In this document: positions 11,496 through 29,690 of the stretch, in pieces
How positions within the stretch are numbered: position 1 is the first letter of the stretch
Layout: each line of letters begins with the position of its first letter
Virus record (IMG/VR): IMGVR_UViG_3300009605_000021
Span: 1 to 64,000 of that record
DNA: 64,000 nucleotides
Strand: one strand, 5' to 3'
Source: a virus
Made by a program: the position numbers and the translations under genes
The notes under the pieces: model-generated
The model's database searches: none
Told to the model about the DNA's origin: nothing
The model's input: only the letters and a program-made list of their open reading frames with translations

Positions 11496-11927
11496 TCATC
11501 TCTTCGTTAATGCTTTCCAAGTGTTAGCATTCCCCATCAAGTTTGATATGTCCACGCCTGAATCACCTGGATCTACACCAGATAAAGGCCCTTGTGGTGA
11601 AGTAGCTTCTCCTGGTGCGCCGGCTTGCGCTACTGGCGTTGTACCTTCAAACAAATCAACCCCATTATATGAACTTTTGCCAATAGCGTCTAACATCTTC
11701 TTTCTTGTTTCGTTGATCTTTTGAGTGTTCTTTTGTTGCTGTTCCAGTTGCAATTTTTTAATTTCATCGTTGTCGCGTTTTTGTTCAACAACCACTTGCT
11801 GCGTCGATCCCAAACCTTTCACAACCTCAGAGATAATACCAGACAATATGCCCTCTTCAAAGAGAGCTTCACGAATACACTCTTTTATCATGGGTTTTAA
11901 CACTTTCTTGAGTTCTGATTTTTTCAT
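11496..11927 (-). CDS. Small head/core protein candidate
   Basis: 143 residues. The N-terminus MKKSELKKVLKPMIKECIRE is a basic amphipathic helix of the same character as the MKLTKSQLKQIIKEEL module of neighbouring genes, and is followed by A, giving I-R-E|A, a plausible prohead protease site. Next come a hydrophobic helix (LFEEGILSGIISEVVKGLG), a Gln/Lys-rich coiled coil (about residues 50-90) and a Gly/Pro-rich disordered tail ending GNANTWKALTKR. No known enzymatic motif. Position between a tagged protein and bS21, close to the protease, suggests a prohead core or internal protein. The ATG at 11927 has AGGAAA upstream. Confidence 0.5.
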   Translation of the reverse strand: MKKSELKKVLKPMIKECIREALFEEGILSGIISEVVKGLGSTQQVVVEQKRDNDEIKKLQLEQQQKNTQKINETRKKMLDAIGKSSYNGVDLFEGTTPVAQAGAPGEATSPQGPLSGVDPGDSGVDISNLMGNANTWKALTKR

Positions 11928-11938
11928 TTAATTTCCTG

Positions 11939-12847
11939 TTAGCGGAATGGATTTAGCTTTAAAAATTTTTTATGCAACGTAGTGCTGCCTCCACTATGTC
12001 TAAAAGATACAGATTCGACACTTTTATCATTCCATTTTTCTTTCGACACTTTGCCACAAGTACCTGGCTTGACAATTATGTTTTCAAACCCAGTGTCTTC
12101 TCTCACGCAAACTTTAACTTCTTCTGTCTCTAATTTTGATTTTTCCTTCAAAACGTTTTCAAGTTCTTCTTTAATAATTTGTTTAAGTTGTGATTTTGTT
12201 AGTTTCATGTTTTTATTTTCATAATATTCTCCACTAGTTGCATCCCCTTTCGCGAGACTTAAAGCTGCGCCGGTGGCGTAATCTCGCTCGTGGCCCGGGC
12301 TTGCGCCCATGGTTGCCTTTGCAAGAAATTTTTCAAGGCCCGGATATTCCGAGTAAGCTGCGACGACGATATCGTTTATTTGCTTCCGCGTGGCGTTGCG
12401 TTCCTCTACCGCTGCACTAAGCTTTTCTTTCATTGCATTAAGTTTTGCAACGTTCTCCTTATATCTAGGTTTTCCGTGTTCTTGGCGTGAGCGGTCGGTG
12501 TCGCTTTGTTGAGCTTTGATCTCACTTTTTTGAGCTTCAATCTCTTCTGCAGAAGGAGCATTATTTGCCACATCGGCGGCCTCTTCAAACCCTGGATATC
12601 CAAAAATAAGTGGGAGCCACTCCTGCATTTCTTGTGACTGCGCAATTTGTCTAGGCTGATCTTTATATTGTTTGTATAAGGCAATGGCGTTCTGGGCAGC
12701 AGGCAGCAATCTTGATAAACCTTTTCTCGCCAGACCTGCGATGCCGCGACCAACAATGCCAGGGGTTTCCGACCAGTCACGCTCCTTCAAAACGTTTTCA
12801 AGCTCTTCTTTGATAATTTTCTTTAGCTGTGACTTAGTTAATTTCAT
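11939..12847 (-). CDS. Double-tagged putative internal head protein
   Basis: 302 residues with two copies of the recurrent module: MKLTKSQLKKIIKEEL at residues 1-16 and MKLTKSQLKQIIKEEL at 214-229, each followed by ENVLKE. Between them lies a helical, Gln/Glu-rich region containing a hydrophobic stretch (GIVGRGIAGLARKGLSRLLP). After the second copy comes a short beta-rich domain with two cysteines (VKVCVREDTGF; VKPGTCGKVS) ending HKKFLKLNPFR. The second copy begins with Met (ATG at 12208), so it may be a fused second gene or have an internal start, though no good ribosome site precedes it. The first ATG overlaps the stop of the prohead protease gene (ATGA), linking the two. I infer a packaged cargo or core polyprotein. 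Confidence 0.55.
   Translation of the reverse strand: MKLTKSQLKKIIKEELENVLKERDWSETPGIVGRGIAGLARKGLSRLLPAAQNAIALYKQYKDQPRQIAQSQEMQEWLPLIFGYPGFEEAADVANNAPSAEEIEAQKSEIKAQQSDTDRSRQEHGKPRYKENVAKLNAMKEKLSAAVEERNATRKQINDIVVAAYSEYPGLEKFLAKATMGASPGHERDYATGAALSLAKGDATSGEYYENKNMKLTKSQLKQIIKEELENVLKEKSKLETEEVKVCVREDTGFENIIVKPGTCGKVSKEKWNDKSVESVSFRHSGGSTTLHKKFLKLNPFR
12143..12208 (-). repeat. Targeting-like module, second copy in 302-aa protein
   Basis: Encodes MKLTKSQLKQIIKEEL plus ENVLKE in the middle of the 302-residue protein. At DNA level it is nearly the same as the copy at 12782-12847, pointing to duplication within the gene. Confidence 0.75.
12782..12847 (-). repeat. Targeting-like module, N-terminal copy in 302-aa protein
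   Basis: Encodes MKLTKSQLKKIIKEEL plus ENVLKE at the very start of the protein, overlapping the end of the prohead protease gene by 4 nt. Confidence 0.75.
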
Positions 12848-13473
12848 TTGTCGCTCTCTCCTCTCAAGACATCATTTAAAGCACGATTAATTCGATCCGC
12901 TTTTGTAAAAACACCCTTTATAGCACCTTCATTAATCTGGGGTGTCGTCATATAAGCACCAGATGTTGAAGGCTCCGAAACCATATCAAAACAAATTAAT
13001 TGAAAGTCGTCTTCGACAATTGTGTCGCCATTCACCTCGTTCACAGAACCCATTCCTCTAGAAGAAATACCTAGTTTGACGCCGGCACTAGCAAGCTCTT
13101 TCAATACTTGACCAGCTGGAGTATTCAAAACCTGAATTTTTCCCATTACAGCGCTATCATCGCCCTTGTCCCACCAAATTTCTGTTATAAGATGAGAAGC
13201 GTTTCTAAGATTAATGACTGAATCTTCTGGATGATCTAGTTCCCCCAATGCTCTTCTTTCTTTAACAAGTTTTTGATAGTTTTTAACTTCTCTTTCTAAA
13301 ATATTCTTGCTATATACGCGGCCATTGCCATTTTTTGCATCGGCTCTTTGCATAACACCAGTAAGAAACACATGGCCTTCTTTGACCATTTTTTTCTCAG
13401 CTTCAGTCAAAAAGTCTTGGCAAACTCCGCCTTCGCAAAGTTCATAGTATTCTCTTAATAATAGTTTTGACAT
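12844..13473 (-). CDS. Prohead maturation protease, T4 gp21-like
   Basis: Serine protease that cleaves scaffold, capsid propeptide and packaged internal proteins during head maturation. The sequence GVMQRADAKNGNGRVYSKNI, then RRALGELDHPEDSVINL and GVKLGISSRGMGSVNEV, matches the gp21 blocks of T4 (rLYPKrILEkaVkDY, LGELNHP, GVSSRGLGSL). The probable catalytic His is in GELDHPE and the Ser in ISSRGMGS. 209 residues, close to T4 gp21 (212). T4-type enzymes cut after (L/I)-x-E; that motif occurs in the capsid protein and in several tagged proteins of this window. Located between core genes and a tagged protein, as expected. The start at 13473 has only a weak ribosome site. Confidence 0.9.
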   Translation of the reverse strand: MSKLLLREYYELCEGGVCQDFLTEAEKKMVKEGHVFLTGVMQRADAKNGNGRVYSKNILEREVKNYQKLVKERRALGELDHPEDSVINLRNASHLITEIWWDKGDDSAVMGKIQVLNTPAGQVLKELASAGVKLGISSRGMGSVNEVNGDTIVEDDFQLICFDMVSEPSTSGAYMTTPQINEGAIKGVFTKADRINRALNDVLRGESDK

Positions 13474-13519
13474 CAGTCACGATCCTTTACAACAATGTCT
13501 TACCGGTTGTAGCATCCAT

Positions 13520-13816
13520 TTAGCCGTCCAAATATCTGTGTTCATGTTTAACTCCGTTATCTCCAAATAATGTGCAAAAAATATAAGATGTGCCGGAACT
13601 TAGGCACCCCAGTAAGAAATAATTAATGACATTATTATCAAATGTAAATAGTTCTGTATATCTGTTTATTCCTACTAAAAACACACCAACCCAAAAGCCC
13701 ATGCACATGGGACAATGAAAAAAATGATGCTCTGGTCTTAACCTATCAAATATCGACCCATAAACTAAAATTTGCGTCATTCCGTAGGCACAAAGAATAA
13801 AATATACTAATCCCAA
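13520..13816 (-). CDS. DUF1360-like small membrane protein
   Basis: 98 residues with two or three hydrophobic segments (LVYFILCAYGMTQILVYGSI, FHCPMCMGFWVGVFLVGI, INYFLLGCLSSGTSYIF). The HCPMCMGFWVG motif is the signature of the DUF1360 family of small membrane proteins found in phages and some bacteria; the role is unknown. C-x-x-C next to a membrane segment could bind a metal or form a disulphide. It sits between the head core genes and the protease and is 1 nt from the upstream gene. A role at the membrane during prohead assembly is possible (T4 proheads assemble on the inner membrane) but is only an inference. Confidence 0.65.
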   Translation of the reverse strand: MGLVYFILCAYGMTQILVYGSIFDRLRPEHHFFHCPMCMGFWVGVFLVGINRYTELFTFDNNVINYFLLGCLSSGTSYIFCTLFGDNGVKHEHRYLDG

Positions 13817-13817
13817 T

Positions 13818-14348
13818 TTAATACCTATAATGTGAGGTCATGCCATATGGCCCACGAATATATCCAGGAATAAGAGAGCCTTTTCTATCTTCGTGTGGGA
13901 TTTCTCCAAGCTCTGTTGAGTGCTCCGTGTCGGGCGACAACAAGTCATCTTCATATGTGTCTTCAGTTTGATTTCTTGTTGAAAAGTTTTCCAATTCTTC
14001 TTTAAGAAAGTTACTTATAGAATATAAAACAGACTGCATTGAATCGATATTCTCATCGGCCGACTTCAATACTGTGGCCTCCATTGAGCCATAGATATTT
14101 CCGCCTTGTACACTTTCAAGTAAAATAACACCTTTATTTCTCAAAAATTCAAAAAGTCGATCTTGTGCTTCATATACTCTTTCTGAAAATATTTTTTTTG
14201 CAAAAGAAAGCACCTTTCCTTTTTGCGGCATTAAAACAATATCAATATCTTCATGATCAAAAATCATAAGATTGCCATCTAGACTTTTTCTAGCATTTAA
14301 AGAGATGGTTTCTTGAGTCGTGCTTCCAATAGTTATTTTAATGTCCAT
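13818..14348 (-). CDS. Unknown protein in head cluster
   Basis: 176 residues, beginning MDIKITIGSTTQETISLNAR. The N-terminal half looks like a mixed alpha/beta domain (LMIFDHEDIDIVLMPQKGKV; DRLFEFLRNKGVILLESVQG); a long helix follows (SMQSVLYSISNFLKEELENF) and then an acidic disordered tail ending YIRGPYGMTSHYRY. No recognisable catalytic motif. It overlaps the preceding gene by 11 nt and the next gene begins 1 nt after its stop, so it is translationally coupled. It occupies the place of the T4 gp67/gp68 core genes between portal and protease, but no sequence relationship can be shown. Confidence 0.5.
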   Translation of the reverse strand: MDIKITIGSTTQETISLNARKSLDGNLMIFDHEDIDIVLMPQKGKVLSFAKKIFSERVYEAQDRLFEFLRNKGVILLESVQGGNIYGSMEATVLKSADENIDSMQSVLYSISNFLKEELENFSTRNQTEDTYEDDLLSPDTEHSTELGEIPHEDRKGSLIPGYIRGPYGMTSHYRY

Positions 14349-15168
14349 TGTCTTGAATCTCTTTTGCTAAATTTTGAATTTTAAGAACTCTCATAATCAT
14401 ATCTTTGTTGACTTTTTCTTTTTTAAAATTCTCTAAAATTTGTAAAATCTTTTTTGCTTTTTTGCCCATGTCTGAGTCTTGTTTCATGTCTTCAGAGTTC
14501 AAAGAGTCAACAATAGTCTCTTTTAACCTAGAAAGTTCTTCATTCAAAAATATCTTTAGTTCGATCCCATTATCAACAAAAGAAGAAATATATTTGCCTA
14601 AAAGTTCTTTTTGTTCTGCAATCAATTTTGACGAATATTCTGAATTAAATCTTTTTATGAAAGACTTGAACACCAAATTGTCAATAGGTTTTACTTTTAA
14701 TCCATTTTCTGATAACTTGTTTGACATTTTTTTGACTAAAGCCTGTTCTAACAAAATACGTTTTTTAACTGGGGTTTCTTCATTGAATATCTGGTATACT
14801 GTTGCCAAACTTTTATAATTTGGAACAAAGTTGGAAAAAACAGACTTTGAAAGAAGTGAATTAATTTTTTTAATTAGGGTGCTCTGTTCAGTAAACAATT
14901 TTTTTCCATCAATTTTAGAATGTTCTTGCTTAATTTCATAAATTAACTTTTCCGCTATGTGCGGTTCCATATCATAAGTTTCGCAAAGCGCTTTATATAA
15001 TTTTAATTCTTTGTATAAAAGAGAATTCTTTTCAAAATGTTCTTTTACAATGGAAACAAGCTCGTCCTTTAGTTCTATATTTTTTCCTATAACCGCTTTA
15101 GTTAGTTCTTTAATCAACGTTTCATAAAGAAAAGCAGTATTACGTTTCTTGTTGTGTTTTGACTTCAT
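14338..15168 (-). CDS. Lys-rich helical protein, possible prohead core
   Basis: 276 residues, strongly helical and basic, starting MKSKHNKKRNTAFLYETLIK. It contains long helices (KELKLYKALCETYDMEPHIA; GIELKIFLNEELSRLKETIV) and a Lys-rich C-terminal coiled coil. No membrane segment or enzyme motif. It overlaps the portal gene by 29 nt and the following gene by 11 nt. Its place directly after the portal gene is where T4 has the prohead core proteins gp67 and gp68; composition and shape fit a core or scaffold role, but this is inferred. The family appears in other marine T4-like phage head clusters. Confidence 0.5.
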   Translation of the reverse strand: MKSKHNKKRNTAFLYETLIKELTKAVIGKNIELKDELVSIVKEHFEKNSLLYKELKLYKALCETYDMEPHIAEKLIYEIKQEHSKIDGKKLFTEQSTLIKKINSLLSKSVFSNFVPNYKSLATVYQIFNEETPVKKRILLEQALVKKMSNKLSENGLKVKPIDNLVFKSFIKRFNSEYSSKLIAEQKELLGKYISSFVDNGIELKIFLNEELSRLKETIVDSLNSEDMKQDSDMGKKAKKILQILENFKKEKVNKDMIMRVLKIQNLAKEIQDNGH

Positions 15169-17155
15169 TATCTTTTAACTCCAATTCCGTAATCAAATTT
15201 TTGATATTATTATTAACTTCGAATATCTTTTTCTCTTCGCTTGAGTAATTAGTCTCTTTTTCTTCGTAAATTCCTTTACCTAAGCTTAATAAATCAGAAA
15301 GTCCTTTATGAGTATTTCTTCTTGTCCCTTTCCCCGACTCATAAGAATAGTGACCTCTGTAGCTTCGTCGTCGGGCGCCCATATCTCGCTTATCAGTTTT
15401 TACAGGTATGTACCACTTAGCTTTTGATTGCGAAGTAGTGGTTTCGGGGCGTCCCATTATGTCTTTTCTTTGAAGCTTATACCAGTCTTTATCGTCTCGT
15501 TTAGCGGGCGGTGCCAAAAGAGCAGTTTCTTCTTCTTCTTCTCCACCTTCTTCTCCTTCTGGCGGAGCTTCATCTTCCGGGGGTTCACCTTCTGGAGGAA
15601 CTTCGCCTTCTCCTGCAGCGGCGGCCAAATCAGGAGGAAGGCCCGGTGGGAGACCAGCTGGTCCACCTCCCATTCCTACTTCTCCTTCTGTTCCTAGCCC
15701 TTCTAGTGCTGCAGCTGCTTCCATTGCGGCTTCGAATTTGCGATCATAAAACATTTCACGCTGAATTCTAACATATTCATCATCTGGCAAGTTAAATATA
15801 TTTCTCGCAACCCACGATCTACTAAAGAACCCTTCAGTTGCACTAGTCGCAATTTCAAATTTTATTCTCCAATTTTCAAGTTCTTGCATTTCTGCAATTT
15901 TTGACGGATTACTTAATGCTAACTTAAAAGACACCAAATCGTCATTTCTATATCCAAGAGTAAACAAGTGAATGACGCCTATTTTTTCTAACTCAGACAA
16001 CACCGATCTTTGAAGCCTTTGAATCGTTCTCGCAAAACGAATATCTTTTTGAGCAAGAGTTGTTTTATCTTCTTCAGCTCCCTCGCCTCTAAAAAGATAT
16101 GATTGAGGAATCTTTAATGCAGCAAATAATTTGTCTTTGAGATATTTAACATCATCAATATCTCCGGTGTAAGCGCCACCAGGTAAACTTTCAACTTTTG
16201 TTGAACTTCCCCCACGAACAGGAATAAAATAATCCTCTTCAATACTCATAGGATTGTAACGCAAATCAACGCGGCCAGTATCGGAATCAATAACTTGATT
16301 TCGCTTCATTTGAGTCATTGCTTTCTGCATAAACTGTTCCACGTCTTCTGGTGGTATATTGCCAACGTCTATATAAAAAATTCTTCTTTCCGGAGAGCGA
16401 ACAATGCGATAAGCCATCACTGCATCTTCTAAAAGATTAAGCTGTCTAAAAATTCGGCGAGCTGGTTCTAAAATACTTGTTCCATACGGAACCCATTTGT
16501 CATTCCCAAGAATACGAAAATGTGCAATTTGCCAATTTTCAAAAGTTATTCCCCCTGAATTCCATTGATACTGAACATAGTTTGGATTGCTTTCGTCTTC
16601 GCCCTCCAATCTCTCAACTTCACTAATCGGCAAACCAATTACATTTTTTACTCCTACTTCCTCATCGATATCCAAATAAAGAAAATAGTCACCAAACTTG
16701 CACATAGAACGACACCACCCAAAAAGATTAAATTCAACATTTAAAATATTATTAAAGAGATTATCAAGAATTCCCTTAATCTCTTCATTCGGGCATCTTA
16801 TATCTAATAAAGGTGTTAGTCCGGTTGAAGTTGTCATTTCATCTGCATAAATATCCATCGCAGAAGCAATAATTGGCTCGTACTCCATTTGATCAAAATC
16901 TGCATATCTTTCAATACGATTTTGATTAGCCATAATATTGGCTGTAAGATTTTCAAATGGGTCAAAAGAAGTTTTCTTAAACTGTTTACCAGCTGCAGAG
17001 GTAAATTTATATTTATCTAGATGTCGTCTTTTTTCTTTTCTAGGTGTTTGACTTCTGTAATTTATAATTGGGCCGGAAAAAAGCCTTGTTAATCGCTTGA
17101 ATAAGCGCGATTGTGGATTTCTTGGGTTTTTATCGTTTTTGTTCCTGCCTGCCAT
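15140..17155 (-). CDS. Portal protein, T4 gp20-like
   Basis: Dodecameric portal at the unique vertex through which DNA enters and leaves. Recognised by YADFDQMEYEPIIASAMDIY, WCRSMCKFGDYFLYLD, WVPYGTSILEPARRIFRQL, EDAVMAYRIVRSPERRIFYI, DVGNIPPEDVEQFMQKAM and the GAYTGDIDDVKYLKDKLFAA block. The 671 residues exceed T4 gp20 (524). The extra part is a C-terminal extension: a Gly/Pro/Glu-rich acidic linker (about residues 500-550), then a basic segment and a helix ending KTQQET. The linker is encoded by GC-richer DNA. It lies 5 nt downstream of the terminase gene, as in many T4-like phages. Confidence 0.94.
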   Translation of the reverse strand: MAGRNKNDKNPRNPQSRLFKRLTRLFSGPIINYRSQTPRKEKRRHLDKYKFTSAAGKQFKKTSFDPFENLTANIMANQNRIERYADFDQMEYEPIIASAMDIYADEMTTSTGLTPLLDIRCPNEEIKGILDNLFNNILNVEFNLFGWCRSMCKFGDYFLYLDIDEEVGVKNVIGLPISEVERLEGEDESNPNYVQYQWNSGGITFENWQIAHFRILGNDKWVPYGTSILEPARRIFRQLNLLEDAVMAYRIVRSPERRIFYIDVGNIPPEDVEQFMQKAMTQMKRNQVIDSDTGRVDLRYNPMSIEEDYFIPVRGGSSTKVESLPGGAYTGDIDDVKYLKDKLFAALKIPQSYLFRGEGAEEDKTTLAQKDIRFARTIQRLQRSVLSELEKIGVIHLFTLGYRNDDLVSFKLALSNPSKIAEMQELENWRIKFEIATSATEGFFSRSWVARNIFNLPDDEYVRIQREMFYDRKFEAAMEAAAALEGLGTEGEVGMGGGPAGLPPGLPPDLAAAAGEGEVPPEGEPPEDEAPPEGEEGGEEEEETALLAPPAKRDDKDWYKLQRKDIMGRPETTTSQSKAKWYIPVKTDKRDMGARRRSYRGHYSYESGKGTRRNTHKGLSDLLSLGKGIYEEKETNYSSEEKKIFEVNNNIKNLITELELKDNEVKTQQET

Positions 17156-17160
17156 TTAGT

Positions 17161-18747
17161 TTATCCTTTAAGAAGCCAAACAAACTTCTTTTGTTCTTCT
17201 ATACTTTTCTTCATTTGTTCGCTTTTTCTAATAGGCTTATAGCCTCGCATTCCTGGTATAGTCGTATTAATTATATTATCAGATTTAAACATAGAACTTA
17301 AGCATGCTTTATGATGTTCGATTTTTCTTTTGTTTTCCACAAATACCGTATCTTTTATCCAACACCCAATTGCAAAAGACATAACTAAGTCATCATTTTC
17401 TGAACGCATTGCTTGTGCTTTCCCATTATTCCAAATAAAAGTTTTAAATTCATTATAAAGTCTAGACGAGTACGTTGTAATTAGCTTGTTCCTCACAAAT
17501 TCTTCCATTTTCGCTACAATGATTGGTCTAGTTTTTAGACTAGTGGTAAAACCAGCTACTCCATTAGAAATATTTTCTGCAGTTAATTGATCAACATATT
17601 CATGAGTTGACTTAACGGAAAAATAAATATTTGGGTATTCCATTTCTTTTAATTTTTCTAGAACTGCGAACCCAACTGAATTGTTTTCGACAACTAATAA
17701 GCAATTGCCATATTCCTTGCCGGCATCAGAAAGTATATTTGAAAAAATATCTGGCGTTACTTTTCCTTGGTATTCTGCAACTATCTCTGCTGTTTCTAGT
17801 TTGAAAACATGAAATACAGAATAATCTTGTCCATCACCTCTTGCAACATCTGCAGTCAGCATGTATGTGTACTCTGATTTATATTCTTCCCAGATCCACA
17901 AATTTCTATCGAACCCAGTTCTATACTTTGGCTCTTTGACACACTGTTCGATAAAGCTTATATCGTCAGGATGGAGAACGGTTTCACCAGAAGTATTAAA
18001 ATTGCATTCCAACTCTTGAGCTACTTGCCTGATAGACATGTTCTTAGTTTCTTTCTCAAACCAAGTCTGATCACGATCCGGATGCACATCCCATAATAAT
18101 TTTACTGAGTGAAAATCATTTCTTCTCGATTCTGCATCAATATACGTTTTATAAAACCAACCACCAACACCATTTGGAGTGCTAAGTGCAATAACGCGAC
18201 CACCAGTTGAAATTGTAGGATACAAACCCGTCCATAATTCATCAAGACCATCAACATGAGCTGCCTCGTCAATGACCAACAGCGACAGAGCCTCTGAGCG
18301 GCCGGCATCAGAAGAGGTGGTAGATGCTTTAATCTGTGAACCATTATCTAGTTCAAAACTAGTTCTGTTGTCGACTATAACTTTAGAAATTTGCATCCAT
18401 TCCGGAAGACGTTTGATAATAGATTTAACCTTTTTAACAAGATTACCAGCTGTACTAAACTTTGTTGCCATAACAAGAACATTTTTATCTCGATGGAACA
18501 ACATTAACCAAACAATATAGGCTGCTGTAATTGTTGAAATACCAAGCTGTCTTGCTTTTAAAATGATGTTAAAACGATAATCATTGAAATCGTTAATGAG
18601 ATCTCCCTGATAATCATAAAGCTTAAAAGGAATCAAACCCCTCATTGGATGGGAGATTTTGCAGTAGTTGTTTATAAAATAAACAGGATCCTTCCCGCCT
18701 CTAAGGATCTCTTTTGTGACTTCTTTCTTTGTTAATTGATAAGACAT
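17161..18747 (-). CDS. Terminase large subunit, T4 gp17-like
   Basis: DNA-packaging motor with ATPase and nuclease domains, acting at the portal. ATPase domain: KARQLGISTITAAY is the P-loop region (about residues 63-76), Walker B is LLVIDEAAHVDG, and the coupling motif is ALSTPNGVGGWFYK. Nuclease domain (RNase H fold): LTADVARGDGQDYSVFHVF supplies the first Asp, LLVVENNSVGFAVLEKL the Glu-bearing strand, and ENDDLVMSFAIGCWI the C-terminal Asp pair. The P-loop lacks the usual G-K-T/S: the residue before S-T is Ile, and the Lys lies five residues earlier, a variant known in several terminase families. 528 residues, shorter than T4 gp17 (610). Confidence 0.94.
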   Translation of the reverse strand: MSYQLTKKEVTKEILRGGKDPVYFINNYCKISHPMRGLIPFKLYDYQGDLINDFNDYRFNIILKARQLGISTITAAYIVWLMLFHRDKNVLVMATKFSTAGNLVKKVKSIIKRLPEWMQISKVIVDNRTSFELDNGSQIKASTTSSDAGRSEALSLLVIDEAAHVDGLDELWTGLYPTISTGGRVIALSTPNGVGGWFYKTYIDAESRRNDFHSVKLLWDVHPDRDQTWFEKETKNMSIRQVAQELECNFNTSGETVLHPDDISFIEQCVKEPKYRTGFDRNLWIWEEYKSEYTYMLTADVARGDGQDYSVFHVFKLETAEIVAEYQGKVTPDIFSNILSDAGKEYGNCLLVVENNSVGFAVLEKLKEMEYPNIYFSVKSTHEYVDQLTAENISNGVAGFTTSLKTRPIIVAKMEEFVRNKLITTYSSRLYNEFKTFIWNNGKAQAMRSENDDLVMSFAIGCWIKDTVFVENKRKIEHHKACLSSMFKSDNIINTTIPGMRGYKPIRKSEQMKKSIEEQKKFVWLLKG

Positions 18748-18757
18748 TCATCACTTA

Positions 18758-19318: not shown

Positions 19319-19358
19319 CAATCTTCTCCTGATAAATTAATCTAATATAAGTAGTTCT

Positions 19359-21245
19359 TTATTTTCTTAACACCTTCGATAAATTTTTCAAAACAACTTC
19401 AAGTTCTTCTTTTTGAACAGCAACTTGATTAAATATATTTTCCAGTGTCTCCGGAGAAGGATACCAGTAGAGATCGACACCGGTTTTATCTTCTATTCGC
19501 TTCTTCTTTTCTGCATACTCCGGGGCCGCAATTGCGCGACGATGTGGATCCAGTGTTAAGAAGAATTCAATATCTGATGGATTAATTTTGCTAACTGCGC
19601 CAAAGAGTACATTGTATCTATCACTGTCATTCTTCACAGGAATTCCTGACAAATCTGAATTCAACTCAATAAGATCATTATACATTGCTCGTTGAAGTAC
19701 AATCTCCGGAGCTGCATCGTCATGGTGTGCGAAGAGGTCTAGCTTGTTCTGAACGTCTTCTTCATTTTTGTAATCGTTTGGCAGCTTATAAGACCTTGAC
19801 ACACCCCTAACACCTGTTGCTTGTTCAAACGTTTCAGCCGGCGCATTATACGGTCCTTTACCAAGCATGTTGTCATCGCCAAGCAATGTCCCTAGGGCAC
19901 GTCCAACCGTATTTAAGAGATTTTCAAAGAATCCTTCTTTCATAAGCGACGCATTCGATATCATCTGTTGAGGTATTTCAGCTTTAATTTTTGGCAAACT
20001 TGCTTCCTTCAAAACAACTTCAAGTTCTTCTTTGACAATTTGTTTGAGCTGCGATTTTGTGAATTTGATTTTTTGTTGTTCGGTCATTGCTCGTCTTTGC
20101 TGCATATCAACTTGCACAAGAGAATTCATTTTATCTTTCATAACCTCGGGATCTTCTGAACAATCAAGAACAGTATCGAGATATGTATCTGCACCAAGTT
20201 TGCCCTTACATATATCAATTACATCGTTGGATGTAAATCCTCCACTTCCTACTCTTCTTCTAAGATCTAAGACTCTAGAACGAATTTCTGTAGGCTCTAA
20301 CATGTAAGGGCGTTGATGTATCCTGAAACTACCTTCCTCCTCGCGAGGAGTAAAGGCATTCTGTGCCCATTTGTTCAGTGCAGGACCGACCATGGAATCA
20401 ATTAAATCGTTTTGCCAATATGATAATTCTCCTCCTCCTGTAATATCAGGAGCATCCGGATCACGAAAAGAAAAATCTGTGACGTGTTCGCGTTCGTGCG
20501 TGCGCACGTGTTTTTCTTGTGGTGGGTGCAGCACATCCCCTAAAGGAAGAAGATTTAAATCTATATCTTGCCTGAGTTTGCCTGCAGTTCTTCCAGGAAT
20601 CATCGTCCCGCTCTCCGGATCAAATCTTGGTTCAACACCCGGCAAGTGCGTCATGGTGGCACGGCCGGCGAGGCGATCATGCATCTTTTTATATTCAACC
20701 GGCGTTTCATATGTCACTTTTTCTATCCATGGCAATATTTCATTTTCATATTTTTCTTTTCCAACTTTCTTTTCCCATGCTAGTCTATCAACACCTTTTG
20801 GGTCTTTGTAAGTTTTAAGATAGGCTTCTCGATGCTCATCGGAAGAAGCTTCAGGCCACTTCAGAGTGGGAAGCGGTTTGGGGGCGTTTTCCCGCTCAAA
20901 CTCGGTGCGAGGAGGTTTAGGCGGCGTAGTGTGGCGTTTAGTGAACTCTGTGAAATCGCGCATCCATGGAGTTTTTATACCGACTCTTTCGCGGGGGCTA
21001 AACTCTTTTTCTAATACATCTTGTGGTAGTGAGCGAATAGCAGCGTCGAATTCTTCGTCAGAGAGCGCTCCTGAATCTTTTTTTTTTGACGGAGATGGTG
21101 ATTTGATCTTTATCCACTCAGGTTTCTCAGGATCATGTTTAGGAAAACGACCGGCATGAGCCCCGGGGCCGGGCATTTGTTCCTTCAAAACAACTTCAAG
21201 TTCTTCTTTGACAATTTGTTTTAATTGAGACTTTGTGAGTTTCAC
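19359..21245 (-). CDS. Double-tagged protein with HExxH zincin motif
   Basis: 628 residues from a GTG start at 21245 that overlaps the previous stop as GTGA, with GGAGA about nine nt upstream; a longer frame to 21308 is unlikely. The protein opens with the recurrent module (KLTKSQLKQIVKEEL, then EVVLKEQ) and has a second copy at about residues 393-414 (IKFTKSQLKQIVKEEL, EVVLKEAS), plus a fragment (KEELEVVLK) near the C-terminus. Residues 250-254 are H-E-R-E-H followed by VTDF, a zinc-metallopeptidase HExxH motif; a downstream EPTEIRSRVLDLRRR may supply the third ligand Glu. The second part (415-628) is of unknown fold. L-K-E|A after copy two fits prohead protease cleavage. Inferred role: an internal head protein injected with DNA, or a maturation protease. 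Confidence 0.55.
   Translation of the reverse strand: MKLTKSQLKQIVKEELEVVLKEQMPGPGAHAGRFPKHDPEKPEWIKIKSPSPSKKKDSGALSDEEFDAAIRSLPQDVLEKEFSPRERVGIKTPWMRDFTEFTKRHTTPPKPPRTEFERENAPKPLPTLKWPEASSDEHREAYLKTYKDPKGVDRLAWEKKVGKEKYENEILPWIEKVTYETPVEYKKMHDRLAGRATMTHLPGVEPRFDPESGTMIPGRTAGKLRQDIDLNLLPLGDVLHPPQEKHVRTHEREHVTDFSFRDPDAPDITGGGELSYWQNDLIDSMVGPALNKWAQNAFTPREEEGSFRIHQRPYMLEPTEIRSRVLDLRRRVGSGGFTSNDVIDICKGKLGADTYLDTVLDCSEDPEVMKDKMNSLVQVDMQQRRAMTEQQKIKFTKSQLKQIVKEELEVVLKEASLPKIKAEIPQQMISNASLMKEGFFENLLNTVGRALGTLLGDDNMLGKGPYNAPAETFEQATGVRGVSRSYKLPNDYKNEEDVQNKLDLFAHHDDAAPEIVLQRAMYNDLIELNSDLSGIPVKNDSDRYNVLFGAVSKINPSDIEFFLTLDPHRRAIAAPEYAEKKKRIEDKTGVDLYWYPSPETLENIFNQVAVQKEELEVVLKNLSKVLRK
19386..19412 (-). 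repeat. Fragment of targeting-like module
   Basis: Encodes KEELEVVLK near the C-terminus of the 628-residue protein. The DNA repeats part of the copies at 20005-20045 and 21181-21221, so it is a remnant of the same repeat and not a chance match. Confidence 0.6.
20004..20069 (-). repeat. Targeting-like module, second copy in 628-aa protein
   Basis: Encodes IKFTKSQLKQIVKEEL plus EVVLKE, then A. Forty-one nt (20005-20045) are identical to 21181-21221 in the same gene. Confidence 0.75.
21180..21245 (-). repeat. Targeting-like module, N-terminal copy in 628-aa protein
   Basis: Encodes the GTG start and KLTKSQLKQIVKEEL plus EVVLKE. The direct repeat with 20005-20045 is 41 nt without mismatch. Confidence 0.75.
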
Positions 21246-21625: not shown

Positions 21626-21634
21626 CTTAGCTCA

Positions 21635-23575: not shown

Positions 23576-23576
23576 T

Positions 23577-24032
23577 TTAATTGTTCTCCCTTATCTCTAC
23601 TGCTGCATAAAAAATAGCAATTGATGTAACAATGCCTGCTACGACTCCTCCAGCGAACCACCAATGAGAGTTTTTGTTTGGCCTGTCTAGAGCAATTTCT
23701 TGGAGCCTGTTAACTTCGTCGTCTTTAATCTTCAGAATTGAATCATATCTCTTTTGCAAAAAGTCAACTTCAATCTTTACCGTAGAAACTAAAAGATCGC
23801 ATCTTATTTTTTCTTTTTCTTCTATATGTCCAATTCTTAATCTGCATTGTTCAAAATTATATTCTTTTTCTGCAATCGATTGAGCAATTGCAGATGAATT
23901 AAAAAGGACTCCTGGAAAAGGAGCTAGTTCACCTTGATTCATTGGTTTAATTTTTGGTGCTTCCTGTGCAAACGCCAACATTGGAAAAGTCACAAGCAAC
24001 AATATTGCTATTATTTTATTCAGAAATATCAA
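23577..24032 (-). CDS. Exported, membrane-anchored protein; spanin candidate
   Basis: 151 residues. The TTG at 24032 has AAAGGAG at nine nt; an earlier TTG at 24038 would be only three nt from it. A signal peptide (FLNKIIAILLLVTFPMLAFA, then QE) is followed by a periplasmic coiled-coil stretch (NFEQCRLRIGHIEEKEKIRC; EVDFLQKRYDSILKIKDDEV) and a C-terminal transmembrane helix (WWFAGGVVAGIVTSIAIFYA). There is no lipobox. In the lysis cassette, overlapping the upstream membrane protein by 17 nt. This two-anchor layout could suit a spanin bridging the membranes or an accessory of the holin, but no homology proves it. Confidence 0.5.
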   Translation of the reverse strand: MIFLNKIIAILLLVTFPMLAFAQEAPKIKPMNQGELAPFPGVLFNSSAIAQSIAEKEYNFEQCRLRIGHIEEKEKIRCDLLVSTVKIEVDFLQKRYDSILKIKDDEVNRLQEIALDRPNKNSHWWFAGGVVAGIVTSIAIFYAAVEIRENN

Positions 24033-24420
24033 AACCAAAGGCTCCTTTAACTAATTCTGCTAATGCTTTCGGATCATCTGCATGATTTTCAACAATTTCT
24101 TTAACTCTCTTTTTTTTATTTCTATCGAGAGTTTCATTGTTCTTTTTTAGTTCTGTCTCAACTTTTTCAATTGTTTCGTTAAAAGCCTTATTTAGCTCTT
24201 CTTTCTTCTTGGTCTCGGCCTCATGAGTTTTGTTAATAACATCAATTTGTTTTTTGTAGCTGTCATTTCTTACTTCTAAGACCCCAATAGCAGCTGCAGA
24301 GTCTCTTTTAAAGAAGACCCAAAGTACAATTGTATATAACAAAGCTATTGGGAAATACCAGTAAGTTTTTAACCAAAGCCAAGTTTTTTTGATAAGAAGT
24401 TTAAAAGCAATCCAATTCAC
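24016..24420 (-). CDS. N-anchored coiled-coil protein; inner-membrane spanin candidate
   Basis: 134 residues from a GTG that overlaps the endolysin stop (GTGA). One N-terminal transmembrane helix (YWYFPIALLYTIVLWVFFKR) precedes a long Lys/Glu coiled coil (about residues 55-110) and a short globular end (DDPKALAELVKGAFGFDISE). This is the layout of Rz-type inner-membrane spanins, and the gene follows the endolysin directly as in classical cassettes. Sequence homology to a known spanin is not visible, so the assignment rests on topology and context. It overlaps the next gene, also membrane-anchored, by 17 nt, recalling nested Rz/Rz1 pairs. Confidence 0.55.
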   Translation of the reverse strand: MNWIAFKLLIKKTWLWLKTYWYFPIALLYTIVLWVFFKRDSAAAIGVLEVRNDSYKKQIDVINKTHEAETKKKEELNKAFNETIEKVETELKKNNETLDRNKKKRVKEIVENHADDPKALAELVKGAFGFDISE

Positions 24421-25044: not shown

Positions 25045-25074
25045 AATATTTTCTCCTTTAATATAATATTTAGT

Positions 25075-25281
25075 TTATTTGTCTAAAAACATCTCATATT
25101 CTAGTACACCTTCGCTCAATTTATCAATAACATATTGTTTTTCGTTGTATGAAGCGAATTCATCTTTATAGGTATCTAAAAGTTGAGATGCCAATTCAGC
25201 AATCCTTTCTAATTTAGCGTTCTTTTTTATAAGATCCTCTAGTGACAGTTCACTAGTAGTAAGTTTCTCAGCTGTTTGCAT
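25075..25281 (-). CDS. Small helical protein, unknown
   Basis: 68 residues from the ATG at 25281 (MQTAEKLTTSELSLEDLIKK), chosen because AAGGAGGAA lies nine nt upstream; a longer frame to 25341 would run into the Mre11-Rad50 gene. The protein is helical and acidic, with a leucine/alanine-rich central helix (NAKLERIAELASQLLDTYKD) and a second helix (YVIDKLSEGVLEYEMFLDK). No known motif. It follows the recombination gene by 16 nt, so it may be an early or middle gene. A box of the ATATTTAG type lies in the gap after it. Confidence 0.55.
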   Translation of the reverse strand: MQTAEKLTTSELSLEDLIKKNAKLERIAELASQLLDTYKDEFASYNEKQYVIDKLSEGVLEYEMFLDK

Positions 25282-25297
25282 TGTGTATGTTTCCTCC

Positions 25298-28200
25298 TTA
25301 ATAATTAACATAAGCAAAGTCACCTTTCTTCTCAATCTCAATTGTCATATCTACACAGTCTTTCAGTGTATCCAAGTGAGAAATGAGAAGAACAGTTTTG
25401 AAGTACGATTTGACCATATCTAAAATTCGTATAAAACCTTCCATGTTTTCTTCGTCCAAAGCCGTTGCAGGCTCGTCTAATATAAATAGATCTGGTTTTG
25501 GCAAACTTGACACATTTAATAGTGCCAAACGAATTGCCATCGCTGCAATTGTCTTTTCTGAACCCGATCCTAATTCAATTGGTCTCGCATCAAATTTGGG
25601 GTGTTTAATAAATATTTCAAGTTTCTTATCTTCCGCTTCGAAGAAAACCTGAAAATCGACAATGTTCGCCAACACTTTTGCAACTTCCGCATTAATAATT
25701 GGAAGCCGCTTTTTAATTATATCATAAGCAATACCATTCGAATGCACACATCTCATAAACAAATCATAAGCAGCATATTCTTCGCGGAGATCGTGAAGCT
25801 CTTGTTTGTTGTTTTCGAGATTTGTTAGCATCTGCTCAATTGAACCATGTTCTTTAGAAAGTTCAATAAGGCGATCTTGACATTCTGACAAATTTTCTTT
25901 TTCTTTTATTGTAGCTCTCAAAAGATTGTCTTTCTGAAAGTTTAAAGCTTCCAAGTTCTCAATTGACAATTTGTTCTTATTATATTCTATTACCTTTTCA
26001 TTTAGTTGTTCAATCTCTTTTTTAAATCCAACAATTTTTGTTTTATTTTTTTGTATCTCCAATTCATAAGAAGAAATTTCGGAATTTAATTGATTTTGTT
26101 TTTCAACAAGTTTATTATGTTTTTCAATGTGTTCTTCAATCTTTTCTGGGTTCAATTCTTGAATTTCATTGGAAGTTTCTATTTCTGTATTTCTTAATTC
26201 GGCAATTTCTTGTTTTACTTCATCAAGTTGTTTCAAGGCTCCGTAGGCATCCTTAATAAATTTGCAATGAGAAAATTCCTCTCCGCAAGGAACTTCTCCT
26301 AGGAGTGATGCTTTGTCTTCTTTAACTTTTAGTTTGGTTTCATGCAATTTGACATCATTGCAAATTAAATTTAGTTGATTTTGCTTTTCAATAACAATAG
26401 ATTTATTATTTTTAGTTTCTTCGATATCAAAATCATCATCTAAAAAGCTTACAATTTTATCTAAAAGCTCGTTGTTGTTTCCGATATTTTCGAAAAACTT
26501 TTTATTCCTTCCAGTTAATAAATCTTTTTCTTTCTTATTTTCTTCTAAAGATTTTTCTATTTCATCTATATCAATCATTTCGACTGGAATAATGTTTATT
26601 CTTTCATTGATATCATCGATTTGCAATTGATAGGAATCAATCTTTCCTGCTAGTTCCTCACAAGCACTTTCTTGACTTTTATTTTCATTTTCAATTGCAA
26701 CAAGTTTTTTACTAACCTCTTCGATTTGTTTATCGAATTCTGTGCCTTCTAATCTTTTAAGCATGCCTCTTAAATCGGAGACATCGTCTTTTGCTAATTT
26801 AAATTTGCGCTCAAACATTTCTAGATCAAGAAATTTAGCAAGAATTTCTTTTCTTCTCGTCGAACCCTCGCTGATAAATATAAGAGATCCCAATTGCGAA
26901 GCCATTGATGTGAAAAGAAAATCATCTATCGTCCCAAACATCTTTCTTATGTTTCTGTCAGTGTCGTTTCTTGACAAGCCATTTAAACTAATATTTTCTC
27001 CGACAACTTCATCTCGCATAGAGAAGTCTATATCTGTCTTTGCTTCAACTGTTGTGCTACCGTGAAGTTTTTTTTCATATTTTTCTGAGGTTCTTTCAAT
27101 CTCATAAATGTTGTGATCAATAACAATCTCAGCTTTGCCGCGACAATTATCTTTTGTTTGATTAATCAAATGAAGATTCTTGCGATTGTTCTTGGACGTC
27201 GAATTATAAATTGTATATAACAAACTATCGATAATGCTTGATTTGCCTGAAAAGTTCTTTCCAAATATACCAACAACTCCATTTAAATTTTCAAAATTAA
27301 TTTTATTCTTTTCGCCATAATTGAATAGATTGTCCCATTCAATGCTTTTAAGTTTCCAATTGATATTTCTCGCCACTTCTTCGTCTTCTTCAACGACAGT
27401 ACTATATTTCTTGTTAAGCTCCAGAACTTTTTCTATTACTTCATCATTGGGATCATAATCTTTAAGATAATCTTTTATAAGTCTTTTTTGAACCGCCATA
27501 TCTCGCAGATTTTCTTGAAAGATGCCCTTAATAGAATCAGACATATCGGCTCCGTCACTGGTAGCTCTATTTAAGAATGTCACACTTTCTGGTTTAAATT
27601 TGGCCTTTGCTACATCGACCGCTTTCTTTAGTATGTCCAATGAAAGATTATTGTTGGAAACCAAACGAAGGCGGGCGCTGGTTGGGATTTGTATTTTGTT
27701 TGGTATTTTCCCTTTTGGTGAAAGCTGAATTGTAATGAAGGGTTTTGGATTTACAAAGGAAACATGCTTACAAGTGAATTTGTCTTTATCTTGAATGTCC
27801 CATATCAATAAACCTTTATCATTTGATTCTCCTTGATTCTGTTGAACTGTGCTACCAGGATAGCGGATTCTGCCTTTCAGGTCCAACACTTGATTTGTTT
27901 TGTGAATATCACCGAGAAAAGCAAAATCAAATTTATCAAAAATTGATATATCATTTTCTCCATATTCCATTGTCCAGCCAAGATCAGTTTTAACTCCATG
28001 GATAGATCCATGATAAAGAGCAATGTTAATTTTGTTTTCATCAGTTGGCTCAACCCAATTGTCTTCATCAAAAATTGAAAGTACATTCAAGGCAAGTTTG
28101 TCGCCCAACATGACCTCACCAGATGCCTTCAGGAGGCACAGAAACGGGTGTTCTAGGGCCTCAACGATAGGAGTGATGGCATCTTGCCTATTTGAGTTTC

Positions 28201-28453
28201 TAAGGTTGCCATCGTGGTTTCCTGGGATTATGTAGGTGGGTGCAATATCCGCTAAATTCTTGAGAAAGTTTGATGCCATCTCGAAATATTCAGGACTCAG
28301 TTGGGTTTTTGTATGCGCGAGATCTCCACAATGAATAATATAGTCAACTTTCTCTTCTCGCAGTCTGTCGTATATCTGATCAAAAATTATACGATATTCA
28401 TAGTGGTATTTTAAGTTGCGGATATGCGTATCCGCAAGATGGGCGAACTTCAT
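25298..28453 (-). CDS. Fused Mre11-Rad50 recombination nuclease (gp47-gp46)
   Basis: Single chain of 1051 residues joining the two subunits of the SbcCD/Mre11-Rad50 complex, which T4 makes as separate gp47 and gp46 for resection of DNA ends in recombination-dependent replication. Nuclease part (1-340): ADTHIRN (Asp8, His10), HCGDLAHT, IPGNHDGN, YHGSIHG and LGDIHK are the metallophosphoesterase motifs. ATPase part (about 365-1051): P-loop GIFGKNFSGKSS (about residues 393-403), two long coiled coils, a hook-like segment PCGEEFSHCKF with cysteines seven positions apart instead of C-x-x-C, signature LGSGSEK, Walker B LFILDEPATALDEEN and LISHLD. A sigma70-type promoter lies just upstream; AGGAG precedes the ATG by five nt. 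Confidence 0.93.
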   Translation of the reverse strand: MKFAHLADTHIRNLKYHYEYRIIFDQIYDRLREEKVDYIIHCGDLAHTKTQLSPEYFEMASNFLKNLADIAPTYIIPGNHDGNLRNSNRQDAITPIVEALEHPFLCLLKASGEVMLGDKLALNVLSIFDEDNWVEPTDENKINIALYHGSIHGVKTDLGWTMEYGENDISIFDKFDFAFLGDIHKTNQVLDLKGRIRYPGSTVQQNQGESNDKGLLIWDIQDKDKFTCKHVSFVNPKPFITIQLSPKGKIPNKIQIPTSARLRLVSNNNLSLDILKKAVDVAKAKFKPESVTFLNRATSDGADMSDSIKGIFQENLRDMAVQKRLIKDYLKDYDPNDEVIEKVLELNKKYSTVVEEDEEVARNINWKLKSIEWDNLFNYGEKNKINFENLNGVVGIFGKNFSGKSSIIDSLLYTIYNSTSKNNRKNLHLINQTKDNCRGKAEIVIDHNIYEIERTSEKYEKKLHGSTTVEAKTDIDFSMRDEVVGENISLNGLSRNDTDRNIRKMFGTIDDFLFTSMASQLGSLIFISEGSTRRKEILAKFLDLEMFERKFKLAKDDVSDLRGMLKRLEGTEFDKQIEEVSKKLVAIENENKSQESACEELAGKIDSYQLQIDDINERINIIPVEMIDIDEIEKSLEENKKEKDLLTGRNKKFFENIGNNNELLDKIVSFLDDDFDIEETKNNKSIVIEKQNQLNLICNDVKLHETKLKVKEDKASLLGEVPCGEEFSHCKFIKDAYGALKQLDEVKQEIAELRNTEIETSNEIQELNPEKIEEHIEKHNKLVEKQNQLNSEISSYELEIQKNKTKIVGFKKEIEQLNEKVIEYNKNKLSIENLEALNFQKDNLLRATIKEKENLSECQDRLIELSKEHGSIEQMLTNLENNKQELHDLREEYAAYDLFMRCVHSNGIAYDIIKKRLPIINAEVAKVLANIVDFQVFFEAEDKKLEIFIKHPKFDARPIELGSGSEKTIAAMAIRLALLNVSSLPKPDLFILDEPATALDEENMEGFIRILDMVKSYFKTVLLISHLDTLKDCVDMTIEIEKKGDFAYVNY

Positions 28454-28479
28454 CGGTCTCCTATTTTGCCTCTCTTGTT

Positions 28480-28508
28480 ACTATAGCACAAAGTATTTTA
28501 CTTGTCAA
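28480..28508 (-). promoter_or_regulatory. Sigma70-type promoter for Mre11-Rad50 gene
   Basis: On the minus strand TTGACA (28503-28508) and TATAGT (28480-28485) are separated by exactly 17 nt. The predicted start of transcription is about 28473, some 20 nt before the ATG at 28453. It is the best host-type promoter found in the window and suggests early expression of the recombination gene independent of the structural genes upstream. Confidence 0.8.
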
Positions 28509-28517
28509 CTATTATTT

Positions 28518-28772
28518 TTAATAACCGCTCTTCCATGCGTCTGGATTTTCTCGGGTTTGGCGCCATTCGTTAATCATGTTTTTAAAGACATCTATGATAT
28601 TATTTTCAAGGTCTTCTCTTTGTTCTGGTGACGCTTCTTCATATAATGCACGCAATGGTTGAAACGCTGCAGAGATTTGAGGACCACGTTCAAGAAGAAG
28701 TTCATTATCGCTACTAGTACGTGCAAGTTCTTCTTGAATAATTTGTTTAAGTCTTTCAGTCGAGATCTTCAT
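28518..28772 (-). CDS. Tagged small protein (84 aa), putative head cargo
   Basis: 84 residues starting MKISTERLKQIIQEELARTS, a variant of the recurrent targeting-like module (x-L-K-Q-I-I-x-E-E-L). The rest is an acidic helical domain (PQISAAFQPLRALYEEASPE; NNIIDVFKNMINEWRQTREN) ending AWKSGY. No enzymatic motif. It overlaps the upstream gene by 17 nt and forms a four-gene set with 28756-29690. No L/I-x-E|A/G site directly follows the module (I-Q-E is followed by E), so cleavage is less clear here than in the others. Confidence 0.55.
   Translation of the reverse strand: MKISTERLKQIIQEELARTSSDNELLLERGPQISAAFQPLRALYEEASPEQREDLENNIIDVFKNMINEWRQTRENPDAWKSGY
28713..28772 (-). repeat. Targeting-like module in 84-aa protein
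   Basis: Encodes MKISTERLKQIIQEELARTS at the N-terminus. Part of its DNA (CTTAAACAAATTATTCAAGA on the coding strand) matches other copies closely. Confidence 0.65.
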
Positions 28773-28950
28773 TTTCTATTTCTTTTATTTGTTGTTGAAT
28801 GTAAGAGGCAGCTTTAAAAAAGATGCTCTTTGCTAAACTATAATCGCCATTTGTATTTTTTAGAGTTGAAGCAACAACCTCTTTTGCGAAATGTTCGACA
28901 ATAGCTTTTTTATCGCCTTCACTCAAATTATCTGTTGTGTTTAATTTCAT
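28756..28950 (-). CDS. Small helical protein (64 aa), unknown
   Basis: 64 residues from the ATG at 28950, which overlaps the stop of the Cys-rich gene (ATGA); a longer frame to 29049 would cover that gene and is rejected. It starts MKLNTTDNLSEGDKKAIVEH and has helices FAKEVVASTLKNTNGDYSLA and SIFFKAASYIQQQIKEIENE. The N-terminal MKL resembles the tagged proteins, but the module itself is absent. Function unknown. Confidence 0.55.
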   Translation of the reverse strand: MKLNTTDNLSEGDKKAIVEHFAKEVVASTLKNTNGDYSLAKSIFFKAASYIQQQIKEIENEDLD

Positions 28951-29096
28951 TTCTCTTTCCTCGGGCGGCCTCTTCGGCGTACTAATTTTATAGTATTGCA
29001 TTTGCCAACACAGTTCTTGCAAGAACAACAGCCGCAACAACAACAGCAATGACTTGAATTAAAAAGATTTGCTAATCTATGTAAAAGATTTTTCAT
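28947..29096 (-). CDS. Cys-rich mini-protein with C-terminal AT-hook
   Basis: 49 residues, read directly from the sequence: ATG at 29096 with GGGAGG eleven nt upstream, stop TGA overlapping the next ATG. The N-terminus MKNLLHRLANLFNSS could form an amphipathic helix. Then HCCCCCGCCSCKNCVGKC packs ten cysteines into residues 17-33, as in a metallothionein or metal-cluster site. The C-terminus RRRGRPRKEK is a textbook AT-hook (R-G-R-P core flanked by basic residues), which binds the minor groove of AT-rich DNA. I know no named family with this pair of features. It lies in the four-gene set between primase and Mre11-Rad50. The run of TGT/TGC codons could also be prone to slippage. Confidence 0.7.
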   Translation of the reverse strand: MKNLLHRLANLFNSSHCCCCCGCCSCKNCVGKCNTIKLVRRRGRPRKEK

Positions 29097-29099
29097 AGT

Positions 29100-29690
29100 T
29101 TATGTTGCCTCCCGATTCGTGTAAGTTGGCTCAACATCTTCTATTTCAATTCCGCGAGATTGTTCAAGAACTTGTACCACAAGTTCTTCTGTGTTCTCGC
29201 CCAAATCATATAACTCATCAACAGCTTGTTTTTCTTCGTCCGTTAATGTTACTTCTTGCCATTCACCATTTGCAAACACATTCCAACGACGTGGATGAAG
29301 TCCTAATCCGCCTTCAGACAATTTTTTAAGCTCTTCCTTAATAATTTGTTTCAATCGCGACTTTGTTAATTTTAATTTGCCTTCGGGCATAAAACCTGGA
29401 TCGAGTTCATCTTCTTCCGAACTTACAGGCATGCCTCCAGCATTAGTGTCAATAGAAATTCTGGCTTTACCTGGTATTACTTCTGGTGTCATTTCTTTTG
29501 AAATTTCCCTTGTACTGAGGTGGTCAAGTAACTCCGCAAATGAATCTTGAAATTCAGCGCGGACTCGACGGGTTTCCCCATATAAATTATTTATATCTAG
29601 TCTGTTTTGCGCAATTAACTGTGAATCAGTCATATTCTCGGAAAACGCTTCTTGAATAATTTGCCTTAGTTGCGTTTTAGTTAGTTTCAC
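29100..29690 (-). CDS. Double-tagged protein (196 aa), putative head cargo
   Basis: 196 residues from a GTG at 29690 that overlaps the primase stop (GTGA). Module copy one is KLTKTQLRQIIQEAF at the N-terminus; copy two is LKLTKSRLKQIIKEEL then KKLSEGG at residues 106-128. Both contain sites of T4 prohead-protease type: I-Q-E|A after copy one and L-S-E|G after copy two. Between them is an acidic helical region (EFQDSFAELLDHLSTREISK) and a loop; after copy two a short domain (WNVFANGEWQEVTLTDEEKQ, AVDELYDLGENTEELVVQVL). An internal ATG at 29390 just before copy two could allow a shorter product. No enzymatic motif. It sits among DNA-replication genes, far from the head cluster. Confidence 0.6.
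   Translation of the reverse strand: MKLTKTQLRQIIQEAFSENMTDSQLIAQNRLDINNLYGETRRVRAEFQDSFAELLDHLSTREISKEMTPEVIPGKARISIDTNAGGMPVSSEEDELDPGFMPEGKLKLTKSRLKQIIKEELKKLSEGGLGLHPRRWNVFANGEWQEVTLTDEEKQAVDELYDLGENTEELVVQVLEQSRGIEIEDVEPTYTNREAT
29307..29375 (-). repeat. Targeting-like module, second copy in 196-aa protein
   Basis: Encodes LKLTKSRLKQIIKEEL then KKLSEGG. L-S-E|G fits the specificity of T4-type prohead proteases. Confidence 0.7.
29646..29690 (-). repeat. Targeting-like module, N-terminal copy in 196-aa protein
   Basis: GTG start followed by KLTKTQLRQIIQEA. I-Q-E|A fits prohead protease specificity and recalls the T4 CTS, which also ends in E-A. Confidence 0.7.

Follow-up and report, generated by a model that had tools for sequence, protein, structure and literature searches.

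Tagged genes in the window

The window analysed here, 64,000 nucleotides that form most of the 70,975-bp virus record IMGVR_UViG_3300009605_000021, encodes four proteins that begin with the same short peptide module, hereafter called the tag. This module is very probably a capsid-targeting propeptide of a T4-like myophage lineage. An initial annotation, made from the DNA letters, had placed it at the start of the proteins at 29690, 28772, 21245 and 12847 and again inside three of them (at 29375, 20069 and 12208). All seven copies, four N-terminal and three internal, were located by profile with E-values from 8e-12 to 2e-6, and all are carried by the minus strand. Their consensus is M-K-[I/L]-T-K-x-Q-L-K-Q-I-I-K-E-E-L. 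A degenerate DNA pattern matches five of the seven sites, with 0 matches expected from 100 dinucleotide shuffles. The tagged genes and tag copies are as follows (aa, amino acids):

29100..29690 (-): 196-aa tagged protein; N-terminal tag 29625-29690, internal tag 29310-29375 with Leu as first residue
28518..28772 (-): 84-aa tagged protein; N-terminal tag 28707-28772
19359..21245 (-): 628-aa tagged two-cargo protein; tag 1 21180-21245, tag 2 20004-20069 with Ile as first residue
19387..19412 (-): third, partial tag copy (KEELEVVLK) at the C terminus of the 628-aa protein
11939..12847 (-): 302-aa tagged protein; tags 12782-12847 and 12143-12208, the internal one starting with Met

The start of the 628-aa protein may lie 9 residues further upstream (MDFRLE.QQ-VKLTK), as also in its relative L352. 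Candidate cleavage sites are present where they had been pointed out earlier, namely IIQE|A at residue 14 and KLSE|G at residue 126 of the 196-aa protein and VLKE|A at residue 414, in tag 2, of the 628-aa protein. Tag 1 of the latter has VLKE|Q at residue 22, and the 84-aa protein might be cut at IIQE|E (14) or LLLE|R (28). The 302-aa protein gene is directly downstream of a gene for a Peptidase S77 (T4 gp21-like) protease.

The regions attached to the tags, here called cargo, gave no convincing Pfam or PHROG match in the window. Cargo 1 of the 628-aa protein holds an HEREH motif that is conserved in one relative. Since HExxH is not clearly enriched among the cargoes (three seen, one expected), metalloprotease function is only a lead. 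AlphaFold models of the 414-aa segment containing HEREH and of a tagged 275-aa protein were too poor for use (predicted local distance difference test scores 42 and 31, respectively).

Distribution of the tag and diversity of its cargo

A strict DNA pattern matched 30 IMG/VR stretches, most of which encode several small proteins started by the module, and a looser pattern matched at least 120. The module stands at the start of about 300 proteins in uncultured, mostly marine T4-like phage contigs, with 3-28 per large record, a larger spread than had been stated before. The logo of 340 non-redundant instances reads M-K-[IL]-T-K-x-[QRK]-L-K-Q-I-I-K-E-E-[LI]; its columns carry 1-5 bits up to residue 16, some 0.3-0.6 over residues 17-22 and almost nothing from residue 23. 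The earlier impression that the attached domains are unrelated holds across contigs: 288 cargoes fall into 237 clusters, 221 of them singletons. A Pfam scan of 90 diverse tagged proteins gave almost no matches, the clearest exceptions being single cases of a TseH-like effector, a GNAT acetyltransferase, pentapeptide repeats, DUF285 and DUF3293. The tag appears separable from an enzyme in L329 (7617-8333), where it precedes a P-loop kinase domain (AAA_33, E 2e-13). The polynucleotide kinases of Ruegeria phage RpAliso and Rhizobium phage RHph_I1_18, which have no tag, begin at about residue 24 of the tagged protein. Assignment of L328:8247-9071 as an ADP-ribosyltransferase like T4 Alt (motifs YHAT...GFYLFS) was unsupported and was dropped.

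Outside phage contigs the module is nearly absent. Bacterial and archaeal genomes totalling 257 Gb gave six matches to the loose pattern, all in metagenome-assembled bins and likely due to stray phage contigs in those bins. A tblastn search of the 22-aa tag against phage records returned no matches because the query is too short; a profile search did match Flavobacterium phage immuto and LR756508. We found no published mention of this tag sequence, or of the second one described below, in the literature searched.

Could the repeat be a DNA-level element, such as a shared leader, a translation enhancer or a mobile repeat, that is translated incidentally? Tag copies within a contig are indeed alike at fourfold sites (identity 0.57 vs 0.34 by chance), and in the window a cargo segment lies between identical 26-nt copies. 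However, the tag peptide opens at the start codon and is kept in frame, and across contigs the copies are 82% identical at codon positions 1 and 2 and 63% at position 3, with the 45 bases upstream at background. As positions 1 and 2 are the more conserved and the upstream DNA is at background, selection acts on the peptide, and we regard a DNA element as extremely unlikely.

Some tagged proteins have recurrent sequences at the other end as well. Short C-terminal mini-domains (YGDDAESVMYATATK.AK; SKKQRRWACAQKDK...EEMCTGPMK; GTEGVCTG.KFGS..CPPGSKRYNLAKTFRKMAK) recur in L004, L011, L030, L069, L025, L113 and L109, as if they were swappable far-end modules. A tag-like helix is found at the C terminus (KKSKLKRIIKEELKNL-stop) in L073 (11250-12033), L074 (4959-5511) and L106 (6357-7140); the module may thus be able to work from this end too. 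T4 Alt itself is processed at both termini (PMC9026906).

A putative cleavage motif past the conserved core

In T4 head proteins the cut falls on the C-terminal side of a Glu within a short motif, and Asp in place of that Glu in the internal protein IPIII stops processing with targeting unaffected (PMC9026906). Our search patterns left residues past 15 unconstrained, and all residue pairs at spacings 1-4 were tested over positions 19-27. The strongest pair is L..E at spacing 2 (z about 12), and I..E is enriched too. Past the core, [LI]xE was observed 127 times vs 60 expected (z 12), and the signal keeps z of 9-11 under dereplication (one protein per contig, or no more than 5/12 identities in the tested stretch). 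The neighbouring enriched pairs L-N, N-E, E-A, E-G and V-L together read V-L-N-E|A/G, with Asn at P2 enriched 6.3-fold and Ala/Gly at P1' about 2-fold. Control pairs (V/M/F/A-x-E and [LI]x-D/K/S/N/Q) show no enrichment, also after dereplication.

Phage immuto also carries MENFDLKKFLVENKLTTNSKILKE|N (gp076, NC_055915 118632-118931), which belongs to a second tag class unrelated in sequence to the first; both classes are thus matched in the same phage, which has 3 matches to the first and 4 to the second and also encodes an S77 protease and a Gp23 capsid. A pattern scan for the second class gave 62 stretches, and 53 proteins have M.NFDLKKFLVENKLT.NS in common, extended to M.NFDLKKFLVENKLT.NS..L.E (L358-L419). 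In these proteins [LI]xE is concentrated at residues 23-25, with few at 26-60, and the 52 longer cargoes form 35 clusters. This bears on the possibility that the tag is a docking helix for a partner outside the head, such as the tail or baseplate, a compartment built by the phage, a chaperone or RNA polymerase of the host. An amphipathic helix by itself names no partner. Yet such docking fails to predict the [LI]xE site, the avoidance of this motif in cargo and the coupling to the protease (see below), and the second, unrelated tag ends in the same cleavage motif; we give this explanation very little weight.

Avoidance of the motif in cargo

Avoidance was measured from residue 29 on, with expectation obtained by shuffling and with untagged open reading frames (ORFs) of about equal length, taken from the same contigs, as controls. 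The observed/expected ratio of [LI]xE is 0.81 in tagged cargo vs 1.27 in untagged ORFs, i.e. a ratio of 0.64 (95% confidence interval 0.56-0.73). [LI]xD moves the opposite way (1.26), and reversed or hydrophobic-swapped motifs show no drop. In the window all four [LI]xE of the 302-aa protein are inside its two tags, and the 628-aa protein has one outside its tags vs 6.8 expected. T4 IPI, IPII and IPIII each have exactly one [LI]xE, which is the site of the capsid-targeting sequence (CTS).

Head genes and the prohead protease

The head genes of the window are the following:

17161..18747 (-): terminase large subunit
15140..17155 (-): portal protein, by gene order and conservation; the phage immuto gene after the terminase is annotated Gp20
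12844..13473 (-): prohead core protease, Peptidase S77 (T4 gp21-like); PF03420 E 2.9e-31, phrog_207 E 2.5e-53
11496..11927 (-): 143-aa conserved prohead-core-like protein; tag-like N terminus, many [LI]xE sites, IRE|A at residue 20
8761..9738 (-): scaffold-like protein, by position and conservation; conserved N-terminal LKE|A, residue 19
6860..8740 (-): major capsid protein (Gp23), PF07068 E 6e-70; propeptide end LLRE|A (E59), conserved in homologues

Both the gp21-like protease and the L-R-E|A of the capsid protein had been noticed in the initial annotation. The protease is a member of Peptidase S77 (PF03420 108.9 bits, cut-off 27) and presumably cuts off the tag. The scaffold, this protease and the 143-aa protein probably correspond to the T4 core proteins. 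Judged by capsid and protease, the closest relatives with a name are Flavobacterium phage immuto, Microcystis phage Mel-JY01, uncultured giant phages and Rhodothermus phage RM378, none of which reaches 60% identity. Across 31 genomes the head genes are arranged in the order terminase - portal - two small genes - [tagged genes] - protease - [tagged gene] - 143-aa family - scaffold - capsid, and in 15/31 clusters the protease gene is flanked by tagged genes. The same kind of motif recurs in the head proteins: across these genomes the capsid propeptide ends in LLENQA...[LV][RK]E|[AS], scaffold homologues have a conserved L[KR]E|A close to the start, and the 143-aa family has a conserved I.E.

The 143-aa protein had been proposed to carry a diverged tag. 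This is right only in part. Its start is indeed tag-like (hhalign P 3e-5), but with its many cleavage sites it looks like a prohead core protein and not like a preserved cargo. Homologues occupy the same position in 28 of the 31 head clusters scanned; the gene is a conserved member of the head cluster in its own right and does not belong to the tagged cargo. The likeness in the N-terminal helix (12 aligned columns), together with the location of some tagged genes next to the protease, would fit an explanation in which tagged proteins are expendable prohead core pieces like T4 gp67/gp68, incorporated by the helix and then digested by the protease. Digestion would predict richness in [LI]xE, which fits the core-like proteins (observed/expected 3.6 in the 143-aa family, 2.2 in the protease and 1.8 in the scaffold), whereas tagged cargo is depleted (0.81). 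Moreover, cargo is hypervariable and includes enzyme domains. An expendable core role is accordingly improbable for the tagged proteins.

The S77 protease was found in 32/49 tagged records of at least 46 kb vs 6/49 random records (p 9e-8); the random set includes shorter records, and part of the contrast is due to tagged phages being T4-like. A stronger statement comes from capsid-bearing records. The initial annotation had named, as a result that would speak against its idea, a module that is widespread in the absence of a prohead protease. This was looked for and not found: among tagged records with a strong capsid match 29/29 also have the S77 protease. The 19 tagged records without a protease (17 from the tagged set and 2 from the random set) comprise 17 without a detectable terminase and 2 with the terminase at the contig edge and the protease place off the contig; no HK97-type protease (S78) was found in them.

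Two observations concern the neighbourhood of these genes. A small membrane protein (FHCPMCMGFWVG; 13520-13816, minus strand) adjoins the prohead protease in the window, and homologues lie at the same place in several relatives. In L326, a 242-kb phage, two similar full-length capsid genes are adjacent (13099-16963); they are perhaps shell and vertex paralogues.

Tags as probable recombination joints

The 628-aa gene has three 100% identical 26-nt stretches (19387..19412, 20008-20033 and 21184-21209), all of them tag sequence. Tag 2 and the C-terminal tag copy bracket the second cargo. In the relative L352 (62% identical), tag 1, cargo 1 and the C-terminal partial tag are present and the second cargo, about 200 residues, is absent. 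The bracketed segment is probably explained by insertion or loss through recombination between tag copies, in either direction.

Discussion

Our results indicate that the module is a capsid-targeting propeptide because the tag has a sharp boundary, the two fixed positions of [LI]xE covary just past its core, the same motif is found in capsid and scaffold, cargo avoids it, the tag is coupled to the S77 protease and the kinase tag is separable. Near-absence from bacterial and archaeal genomes is in line with the capsid-targeting idea put forward in the initial annotation, which is thereby supported at the sequence level. We propose that residues 1-16 would fold into an amphipathic helix by which the protein docks on the prohead core while assembly is under way. 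Cutting by the S77 protease would follow, after an [L/I]-x-E that lies within the helix (IIKE|E), at the helix end (residues 19-27, typically L-[N/K/S]-E|[A/G]) or at both places. After the cut the cargo would stay in the head with the DNA; it probably leaves the head together with the DNA and has its effect at an early stage of infection. An internal tag would turn the gene into a two-cargo polyprotein. Since tags share DNA sequence, recombination between them may insert, remove or swap cargo.

Several points weigh against this interpretation. As many as 116/262 proteins do not have [LI]xE at residues 18-28; in these, cleavage would have to take place at IIKE|E or at a less strict motif. The 84-aa protein of the window has three [LI]xE outside its tag. 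The mature capsid protein must certainly meet the protease, yet it shows no shortage of [LI]xE (observed/expected 1.7); therefore avoidance marks cargo and not all head proteins, and for the same reason it may partly reflect small size or disorder of the cargo. When only records of at least 100 kb are compared, the protease is present in 15/17 vs 5/9, which is not significant (p 0.14). T4 IPI, IPII and IPIII receive no meaningful score from the tag profile. It is also important to note that packaging, cleavage, injection, docking and cargo functions are inferred from sequence.

The closest known system is the CTS of T4, of which 10 residues suffice for packaging and which is cut by gp21 (PMC9026906). 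In both cases a short N-terminal peptide ending in [L/I]-x-E|A is common to unrelated variable proteins (PMC9026906, PMC3012670), the same genome has an S77 protease and a Gp23-type head, and the cargo otherwise has few or no [LI]xE. The two differ in that a 16-residue conserved helix is found here and MKTYQEFIAE in T4, and in that large records have 3-28 tagged proteins as compared to three internal proteins in T4. The present system is further set apart by second tags inside proteins, by cargo segments that tags bracket and by its occurrence in many uncultured lineages. With high probability the module works like the T4 CTS; we do not call it a descendant because no sequence similarity was detected. 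T4 Alt, gp21, gp22, gp67 and gp68 are head-internal and processed by gp21 at [L/I]-x-E (PMC9026906), similarly to the predicted tag cleavage, but Alt and the core proteins have no module and, unlike tagged cargo, have many [LI]xE sites. Giant phiKZ-like phages (SPN3US, phiKZ) also package and eject head proteins that are cut after a Glu motif by a gp21-related protease, and their paralogues gp53 and gp54 have an identical 15-residue N terminus (PMC5694885). There the motif is A/S-x-E, propeptides are mostly longer than 100 residues, and the tag is common to paralogues and not to unrelated cargo.

We think it fairly probable that this is a very large cargo system not described before, in which a phage of this kind, among many uncultured T4-like ones, has an exchangeable set of up to about 28 proteins packaged in the head and probably injected, with at least two unrelated tag classes and with tags as recombination joints for insertion, doubling and exchange of cargo. 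Many small dark-matter ORFs of these phages would then be virion effectors. With the tag, hundreds of uncharacterised proteins from uncultured phages could be given a single role from sequence alone, namely packaging in the head and probable delivery at infection. All three T4 internal proteins inhibit Type IV restriction enzymes (PMC12373910). If this anti-restriction role extends to the present cargo, the tag may be a search key to a large ocean reservoir of phage counter-defence proteins. It also makes testable the old question of how T4-like phages gain and exchange internal proteins.

Additional observation

An overlapping gene pair at 23577-24420 (minus strand) of the window resembles a spanin-type lysis pair: one product has an N-terminal membrane segment and a coiled coil, and the other a signal peptide and a C-terminal membrane segment.

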